Part shown: piece by piece, positions 27,236 to 28,921 of the stretch
Numbering within the stretch: position 1 is the first letter of the stretch
Layout of the letters: every line of letters starts with the position of its first letter
IMG/VR virus record: IMGVR_UViG_3300029448_000233
Location: 1 to 31,155 of that record
Reading direction: 5' to 3' (one strand)
DNA length: 31,155 nucleotides
DNA from: a virus
Notes under the pieces: model-generated
What the model was told of the DNA's origin: nothing
The model's input: the letters and a program-made list of their open reading frames with translations, nothing else
The model's database searches: none
Made by a program: the position numbers and the translations under genes

Positions 27236-28516
27236 CTATTTTTTTGTAATTACTTGAGAAATCAAGTTTGTATTTAATGCCTTGCCAGTTGCTTTAGCAA
27301 GTTTGTCTTGGTCTGATTTTGAAATACCAACTAATTTATTTCCATAAATTTCAGCAGTAGTTTCATATTTTAAATGACCAGCTCTAGCCTTAACTTGATT
27401 AGGATCCAAATTATATTTCTGCATATTGCTAATTAAAGTAGAGCAAAGTTTATGTCTAAAAGTTTTAGTTGGAGATCCTTTTAGTGATGAAGATAATATT
27501 TTAACATGACCATCTCTTCTGCAAACTATCTCAGCCAATCCATGTTCAGCATAATTTTTCCAGATCTGAGCATTAATATATTTATAAGATAATGGTCCAT
27601 CACCTCTAAGGCCAGGTAAAACCCAATTAGAATATTTATGATTTTTATCTAAGTATTTAAACCACATCTCAAAAAATCTAACAGCATCATCATCAAGAGG
27701 TATATCTCTTTTGCTGCCTCTGTTTTTAGTTCGGTTTAAATAACCACCTTCTGCTTGTATATAAACACCTTGAATTTTAAGAATTTTATTATTCAGATCT
27801 ACATTAGATCTTTTAATAGCAGCTAATTCAGATGCTCTTAAACCAAAGATAAATAACAAACATAATATGGCAAATCTATTAGCAGCATTCGTATCATTCC
27901 ACATTTGCTCATAATTAGTATTAATCATGACCATACATAAATTGTCATCTAAAATTTTAGTTTCTTTACGAAACAATAAATCATCATCTTTTGGAATTAC
28001 ATAAGGATAATCATAGATCTTAAATGTTTCCATATCTCGACAAACATCCCAGCCATACATATTAGCTTTACGAATAAAATGTCTAATATCCTTAACTGAA
28101 TTTCTTAGAGTTTTAAAAGGAACTCCATCATCAAATGCAGCTTTTAAAAACTGTTCCATTTGCTGTAGCTTAAATTCAGTCAGCAAAAGTGTTGGAGAGA
28201 TATATTTAGATATTCTTAGATCGAACTCTCTTTGATACCTAGATAATGAAGTTTGATTAATTCTATTTTTAGAATTTTTTAGATCTAATTTAGCTTGAGC
28301 AAATTTTTGAAAAGCATCATGAAAAGTTACTCCGCCTGGATCTTTTTTAATTGGAGTTGCAGATCCAGAAAGCTCAAGATTAAACATGGCTTGTTCCGCA
28401 TCTGATTTAAGTTTAAATGGAGCTCCATCTACACTAATCGTTTTTCTTGTTTCGATTGATTGAATGATCCATTTATTGTTCTTAGGTGTTACTCTGTAGT
28501 TTTTTGTTTTTGTCAT
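27236..28516 (-). CDS. int: Tyrosine recombinase (integrase)
   Basis: This 426-aa protein has an arm-binding N-terminal part, a core-binding SAM-like domain and a catalytic domain. Catalytic residues appear as R in LLFIFGLRASELAAIKR (near residue 222), a lysine hairpin around GYLNRTKNRGSKRDIPLDDD, R in KTFRHKL (near residue 352), H in RAGHLKYETT (near 378) and the Tyr nucleophile in AEIYGNKL (near 391). Box II has K in place of the usual first His (K-T-F-R-H instead of H-x-L-R-H), a known H/K variation. It starts 208 bases from the attP core and reads away from it. It would catalyse integration at a host tRNA-Asn gene. Confidence 0.93.
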   Translation of the reverse strand: MTKTKNYRVTPKNNKWIIQSIETRKTISVDGAPFKLKSDAEQAMFNLELSGSATPIKKDPGGVTFHDAFQKFAQAKLDLKNSKNRINQTSLSRYQREFDLRISKYISPTLLLTEFKLQQMEQFLKAAFDDGVPFKTLRNSVKDIRHFIRKANMYGWDVCRDMETFKIYDYPYVIPKDDDLLFRKETKILDDNLCMVMINTNYEQMWNDTNAANRFAILCLLFIFGLRASELAAIKRSNVDLNNKILKIQGVYIQAEGGYLNRTKNRGSKRDIPLDDDAVRFFEMWFKYLDKNHKYSNWVLPGLRGDGPLSYKYINAQIWKNYAEHGLAEIVCRRDGHVKILSSSLKGSPTKTFRHKLCSTLISNMQKYNLDPNQVKARAGHLKYETTAEIYGNKLVGISKSDQDKLAKATGKALNTNLISQVITKK

Positions 28517-28585
28517 TGATATTCAATAACTTCATGAGATAACTTTCCAAGAATAATTTGCTCTAATATAACTAGCTGTAAGTGT

Positions 28586-28607
28586 TTCACTATTTGGTGT
28601 TAGTGAA
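28586..28607. repeat. Inverted repeat TTCACTA/TAGTGAA, candidate integrase arm site
   Basis: Perfect 7-bp arms with an 8-nt spacer. The same heptamer occurs twice as direct repeats on the other side of the core, within the longer string TAATTCACTAA (28831-28841 and 28903-28913). Confidence 0.5.
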
Positions 28608-28686
28608 TAGAAGTGAAAGTTTTTTAGGAACAAACTATTTTCCGATATAATCTTGGAAAATAATAACATTTAGTTAACCTTTCTTT

Positions 28687-28705
28687 AGTTGTTAATTTAA
28701 CAACT
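28687..28705. repeat. Palindrome next to attP core
   Basis: AGTTGTTAA and TTAACAACT are perfect 9-bp arms around a single T. It lies 18 bases from the core on the integrase side. It could be an operator for a regulator of int or an excisionase site. Confidence 0.5.
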
Positions 28706-28723
28706 GGAAGGTGTTTCTAAGTT

Positions 28724-28766
28724 ATTGATTAACAGTCAACTGCTCTACCAACTGAGCTACCGAGGA
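28724..28766 (-). other. attP core: 5' half of a tRNA-Asn(GUU) gene
   Basis: Read on the minus strand from 28766: acceptor 5' strand TCCTCGG, TA, D-arm GCTC-AGTTGGTA-GAGC, A, anticodon stem GTTGA, loop CTGTTAA with anticodon GTT, and stem TCAAT. That is 7+2+4+8+4+1+5+7+5 = 43 nt, i.e. tRNA positions 1-43. No variable loop, T-arm or acceptor 3' strand follows, so it is not a functional tRNA gene. Beside a tyrosine integrase it is best read as the identity segment for integration into a host tRNA-Asn gene. Confidence 0.88.
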
Positions 28767-28783
28767 ATGTTTAAAGAAACAAT

Positions 28784-28812
28784 GTTTTATTAAACAATCG
28801 GATGACTGTCAA
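28784..28812 (-). promoter_or_regulatory. Promoter reading into the half-tRNA and integrase
   Basis: Minus strand: perfect TTGACA (28812-28807), 17-bp spacer, TAAAAC -10 (28789-28784, 4 of 6). The tRNA-like sequence begins 17 bases further at 28766, a spacing that suits a short tRNA leader. In the free phage it would transcribe through the half-tRNA to int, about 260 bases away. Confidence 0.6.
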
Positions 28813-28858
28813 AATAAATTTAGCGAAAAATAATTCACTAATTTATAAAAACACAAAC

Positions 28859-28872
28859 CAGTCAACTACTCT
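28859..28872 (-). repeat. Copy of the tRNA anticodon-arm sequence
   Basis: Minus strand AGAGTAGTTGACTG differs by one base from AGAGCAGTTGACTG in the attP core (28746-28733), 126 bases away. A third copy, AGAGTTGTTGACTG, lies at 19665-19652. May be an accessory core-type or regulatory site. Confidence 0.5.
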
Positions 28873-28921
28873 TATATCAAAGTTAGGATAATCTTATATA
28901 GTTAATTCACTAAGTAAAGAT

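Follow-up and report, generated by a model that had tools for sequence, protein, structure and literature searches.

A phage that recombines inside the 5′ half of a host's only copy of a tRNA gene would part that gene from its promoter, and the question is what then expresses the rebuilt gene in the lysogen, and what is left in front of the integrase. This question is raised by a 31,155-base virus record related to pelagiphage HTVC028P, which was analyzed over its whole length and is called the window here. It has a copy of the 5′ half of tRNA-Asn ahead of a tyrosine recombinase gene, int. The tRNA-Asn that matches this half is that of SAR11, a group of marine bacteria that is the most abundant in the ocean.

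The attP core and its promoter-like box

On the minus strand, the window has in order TTGACA, 17 bp, TAAAAC, 17 bp, the tRNA-Asn 5′ half, a 207-bp leader, and int. The initial annotation had placed this box 17 bp upstream of the half-tRNA and pointing to int, and its coordinates and spacings are exact. The features are as follows.

27236 to 28516, minus strand: int, tyrosine recombinase of 426 aa (Pfam Phage_integrase)
28517 to 28723, minus strand: leader from the half-tRNA to int, without a promoter-like site of at least 9/12
28586 to 28592: putative arm-type site TTCACTA, P′ side, from motif comparison between lineages
28601 to 28607: putative arm-type site TAGTGAA, P′ side, from the same comparison
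28687 to 28705, minus strand: palindrome or hairpin AGTTGTTAAATTAACAACT, adjoining GAAAGG (28678 to 28683), with a hairpin here in nearly all relatives
28724 to 28766, minus strand: attP core, the tRNA-Asn(GTT) 5′ half through the anticodon loop, from comparison with the host tRNA-Asn
28777, minus strand: predicted transcription start, about 7 nt past the -10
28784 to 28789, minus strand: -10-like box TAAAAC, exactly 17 bp from the -35, with a family consensus of TAAA plus 2 variable bases
28807 to 28812, minus strand: -35-like box TTGACA, in the same place in relatives
28834 to 28840: putative arm-type site TTCACTA, P side, from the motif comparison
28906 to 28912: putative arm-type site TTCACTA, P side, from the motif comparison

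Position 1 of the tRNA is at 28766 on the minus strand, and identity to the host tRNA-Asn continues down to 28724 (43 nt), with 28729 to 28766 (38 nt) as the portion common to all relatives. Rfam scores the half-tRNA stretch as a weak tRNA with 31.4 bits because the 5′ half is intact. A complete phage tRNA, based on the Rfam match over 1 to 71, was considered and rejected, since ARAGORN detects no tRNA gene in the window. The int product matches PF00589 (Phage_integrase) with E = 2.5 × 10−13, and the gene is downstream of the box and half-tRNA and co-directional with them. The locus has the makings of a tRNA-targeting tyrosine-integrase prophage, with a tyrosine recombinase beside attP, a core that matches a host tRNA gene, and, in relatives, a tRNA rebuilt at one junction.

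Scanning with the 38-nt core finds 58 viral contigs, most of them in 2 classes. In classes A to D, int is 210 to 270 bp downstream of the half-tRNA start on the same strand; in class E it is upstream and divergent where it could be located. Several class E contigs have boxes at a similar place, reading TTGATA-17-TTAAAA (L021, L028) and TTGATA-17-TAAGAA (L130). A search of the phage collection found no class E isolates. HTVC028P (MW273921) shares the attP layout with the window, having TTTACA-17-TAAAAC, the half tRNA-Asn, the leader, and int. Its integrase is 48.5% identical to that of the window, and the half-tRNA, box, and attP are unannotated in the corresponding stretch of its record.

In a single sequence the box is unremarkable, being no more than is expected by chance, and the scan alone is uninformative; it is conservation that carries the claim. 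A simple promoter scan of 4.2 kb lists 16 sites versus 21.3 in shuffles, and the phage box is absent from its list for the window because the sixth base of the -10 is C and not T (TAAAAC differs from TATAAT at positions 3 and 6). Conservation was examined over class A to D attP sites, attL junctions, and the scars described below, and removal of those more than 80% alike left 15 non-redundant phage-type upstream regions. Of the 15, 11 match TTGACA in at least 5/6 bases and have TAAA exactly 17 bp further on, whereas 500 rounds of shuffling gave 0.046 on average and never more than 1, a comparison that carries no formal p-value because the sequences share ancestry. Column identity in the aligned phage-type upstream regions is 0.74 for the -10, 0.42 for the spacer, and 0.91 for the -35, the last figure being inflated because the rows were picked for possessing a -35. 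TTGACA or TTTACA occupies the -35 place in nearly all class A to D attP sites, in the attL of L097, and in the scars, and TTGCTT is found there in the L096/L109 lineage. Constant spacing across a diverged spacer is the trace that a promoter would be expected to leave, with shared ancestry inflating the statistic. From the predicted start at 28777, the RNA would have about 10 nt ahead of tRNA position 1.

In 16 aligned phage-type upstream regions, a T at spacer position 18 (-17), five bases before the -10, is invariant, although the rest of the spacer varies. It is mostly followed by G or A and is reminiscent of a partial TRTG-type extended -10 element.

Junctions and scars in SAR11 genomes

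In the surveyed Pelagibacteraceae, tRNA-Asn is single-copy, with 215 of 297 genomes matched; among the matches listed, only 4 genomes, with a prophage or phage contig, have 2 tRNA-Asn matches. For a lysogen to survive, transcription of the rebuilt gene must therefore come from the phage side, whether from a promoter of its own or by read-through. The host box in the spacer between tRNA-Cys and tRNA-Asn is TTGTTT (variants TTGAGA and TTGTTA), 16 bp, and TAAGTT, TATCTT, or TATGTT, and ends 8 to 16 bp ahead of tRNA-Asn. It remains beside tRNA-Asn even in a clade with about 456 bp between the 2 tRNA genes.

An integrase search of GTDB genomes gave 4 SAR11 single-cell genomes, the lysogens found being those of relatives, with none of this exact phage. 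In 3 of the 4 (L063, L064, L065), attR consists of host genes, tRNA-Cys, about 50 bp, the half tRNA-Asn, the phage leader, and int. The host promoter-like box is intact ahead of the half-tRNA and int, which is the arrangement claimed earlier for the host promoter after integration. Int is open and whole at these junctions; att is outside int, so integration does not split the gene. The attL junctions (L096, L097) run from phage genes through the phage box to a complete tRNA-Asn and then to the host genes that are downstream of tRNA-Asn in prophage-free strains, and in these relatives the phage box has indeed become joined to a restored tRNA as had been proposed. The phage genes of L097 match HTVC028P at 94% to 98% in 2 ORFs. 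The attL was found for 2 of the 3 attR genomes, on separate contigs of these draft single-cell assemblies, so that the pairing is a presumed one. For an element like those of class E, both junctions are present in genome G295. At the level of DNA, the junctions of these relatives show the swap of the candidate promoters.

At least 6 SAR11 genomes that are prophage-free at this site carry the phage upstream piece. In L100, L109, L150, L173, L232, and L234, phage P-arm DNA is found between tRNA-Cys and tRNA-Asn, with the native box replaced and the prophage gone. The L232 scar has only 46 to 53 bp of phage DNA, extending from just before TTGACA to the tRNA. Weaker matches to the phage arm are found in L111 and L112, with the detectable homology in L111 being the segment from -47 to -15, and native controls L226, L103, and L117 have zero matches to any phage arm. 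That scars without int still keep the box is the best evidence in the analysis that it serves tRNA-Asn, and it seems to be kept mainly for that gene; read-through from tRNA-Cys could alternatively supply tRNA-Asn in the scars. As a tRNA promoter, the phage box is strongly supported by these comparisons.

Some other observations concern the host side of the site. L095 (G004 contig 3) has a tRNA-Asn with no tRNA-Cys found upstream and a TTTACAG-17-TATTTA box that weakly matches phage P arms; the same cell has a phage contig with attP. In the SAR11 genomes L226, L096, L097, L130, and L142, an XRE/HTH_3 gene is encoded directly past tRNA-Asn in convergent orientation, with 34% to 41% identity to the XRE regulator of HTVC028P, possibly a phage repressor that was captured next to attB.

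A proposed promoter exchange and the readings that compete with it

The best explanation for the whole, to which we assign a probability of about 0.7, is that the phage supplies a replacement promoter and that promoters are exchanged reciprocally at tRNA-Asn. The tyrosine recombinase would insert the phage within the 5′ half of tRNA-Asn, a gene that the host has only once and that would normally be behind its own promoter-like box right after tRNA-Cys. Because the crossover would part tRNA-Asn from the host promoter, the phage would carry TTGACA-17-TAAAAC as a substitute, placed before its copy of the 5′ half. In unintegrated phage DNA, the phage promoter would read via the half-tRNA into int; once integrated, it would drive the restored tRNA-Asn, with the host promoter left to read via the half-tRNA into int. 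The initial annotation had assigned the former state to the circle. The position of the phage box ahead of int stands, but a circular form is unnecessary because attP lies within the phage DNA, with the box ahead of int whatever the form of that DNA.

We infer from this arrangement that the promoters are active, that either can transcribe int, and that integrase level is affected. The main selected role is probably to keep up tRNA-Asn expression in the lysogen, and int control may be a by-product or a further use. The tRNA role is the more secure because the box is kept in scars without int and in several class E phages with int elsewhere. The fullest version has a complete reciprocal exchange, with the host tRNA promoter in charge of int in lysogens, and with SAR11 lineages repeatedly losing the prophage but permanently keeping the phage promoter for an essential tRNA; we lean toward it, if only slightly. 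If true, the exchange would explain how lysogens survive phage insertion into the 5′ half of a tRNA gene that is essential and present only once, and how integrase supply follows the state of the phage, integrated or free, with no regulator devoted to the task. The scars would be a visible record of phage promoters adopted by host tRNA genes.

The leader bears on the int side of the exchange, as a strong int promoter within it had been named as one finding that would speak against the proposal. The scan lists zero promoter-like sites of at least 9/12 on the int strand from 28517 to 28723 of the window, and those in the leaders of relatives are scattered, with none conserved. The window scan also has no terminator-like site between the box and int, so an RNA started at the box would be expected to extend into int. 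The RNA from 28777 to 28510 folds better than shuffles, with z = −3.28. The stem sequence of the leader hairpin varies among lineages and the hairpin itself persists; in its flanks (28676 to 28711, minus strand), CCTTCC pairs with GAAAGG, a ribosome-site-like sequence. By analogy with the leader of ICEKp1, it may damp int expression. A conserved-looking micro-ORF in the leader (45 to 56 aa) was rejected, as variation is spread evenly over the three codon positions (114/128/120) and most codon changes, 242 of 263, are nonsynonymous. The leader conservation is better read as P′-arm DNA than as a gene.

A narrower reading would have the box as a promoter of tRNA-Asn only, with int driven by late read-through or by an unrecognized leader promoter, and with no meaningful integrase switch. 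It draws on the int-less scars that retain the box, on the class E phages in which int is upstream and divergent and yet several have a similar box, and on the structured int leader. Furthermore, the late genes upstream read toward attP with no terminator-like site between, so read-through could also feed int or tRNA-Asn. We nevertheless consider it unlikely, since the leader has no conserved promoter, nothing terminator-like would keep transcription from the box out of int, and the same geometry has been shown to drive int in ICEKp1 (PMC13023037).

Other readings would take the promoter away altogether. TTGACA is within attP, and TTGAC is also found in the core and at 28861 to 28867, as might suit an integrase arm-type or accessory protein site. 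The putative arm motifs, however, flank the core on both sides and switch in step among lineages (TTCACTA, TGCACC, TTCATCA) while the box stays constant, and for that reason TTGACA was rejected as an arm site. With the constant 17-bp spacing to TAAA suiting a promoter and TTGACA retained in scars that have no integrase, the site reading is very improbable. It is harder still to credit that the tRNA-Asn of the lysogen is fed only by late-gene read-through or long transcripts, with the box incidental. The late genes upstream of attL do aim at tRNA-Asn and the -10 is weak, but the box is conserved well beyond its spacer, and lysogens normally keep phage late genes off.

Relation to known integrating elements

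In ICEKp1, int is driven by the host tRNA-asn promoter when the element is integrated and by a promoter at its far end when it is excised, and state-dependent switching of int promoters has also been shown experimentally for ICEclc and ICEEc1 (PMC13023037). The likeness to ICEKp1 includes an int that adjoins att on the tRNA strand and has a structured leader. Both of the switching features are seen here as sequence, namely, a host tRNA promoter before int, in the attR of L063 to L065, and a conserved box before int at the other end of the element. The ICEKp1 case was made with RACE and reporters, whereas the present one is made from sequence alone. Because ICEs insert at the 3′ end, their target tRNA retains its own promoter; the pelagiphage core is the 5′ half, so tRNA-Asn itself changes promoter.

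The use of a tRNA 5′ half as the shared core is known from archaeal integrases of the pTN3/TKV4 type, in which the rebuilt tRNA loses its original promoter and is transcribed from the element's side, and such integration is stated to be seldom met in bacteria (PMC5495485, PMC8371274). The pelagiphages likewise have the 5′ half as core and a tRNA that leaves its promoter. Integration splits the pTN3 integrase gene, whereas the pelagiphage int stays whole and would gain the host tRNA promoter. As proposed, the pelagiphage system is a reciprocal variant that combines ICEKp1-like switching with pTN3-like use of the 5′ half, with int whole.

Actinobacteriophages with tRNA-dependent lysogeny also target an essential single-copy tRNA and must secure its supply, but they bring along a complete extra tRNA and leave the host gene unrestored (PMC10865867); here the window has no tRNA gene, the core is 38 to 43 bp, and the tRNA is rebuilt at attL. 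No paper on SAR11 prophages at tRNA-Asn was found in the literature searched. Pelagiphage HTVC022P differs in its target, integrating at tRNA-Cys, and its int is reported to be expressed at 1 to 2 h (PMC12753301). The same tRNA-Asn 5′ half is also carried by a second, unrelated-looking phage group (L019, L021, L023, L036, L040, and relatives), in which int, where located, is on the other side and divergent, and an A-tract and a hairpin are found directly upstream of the half-tRNA.
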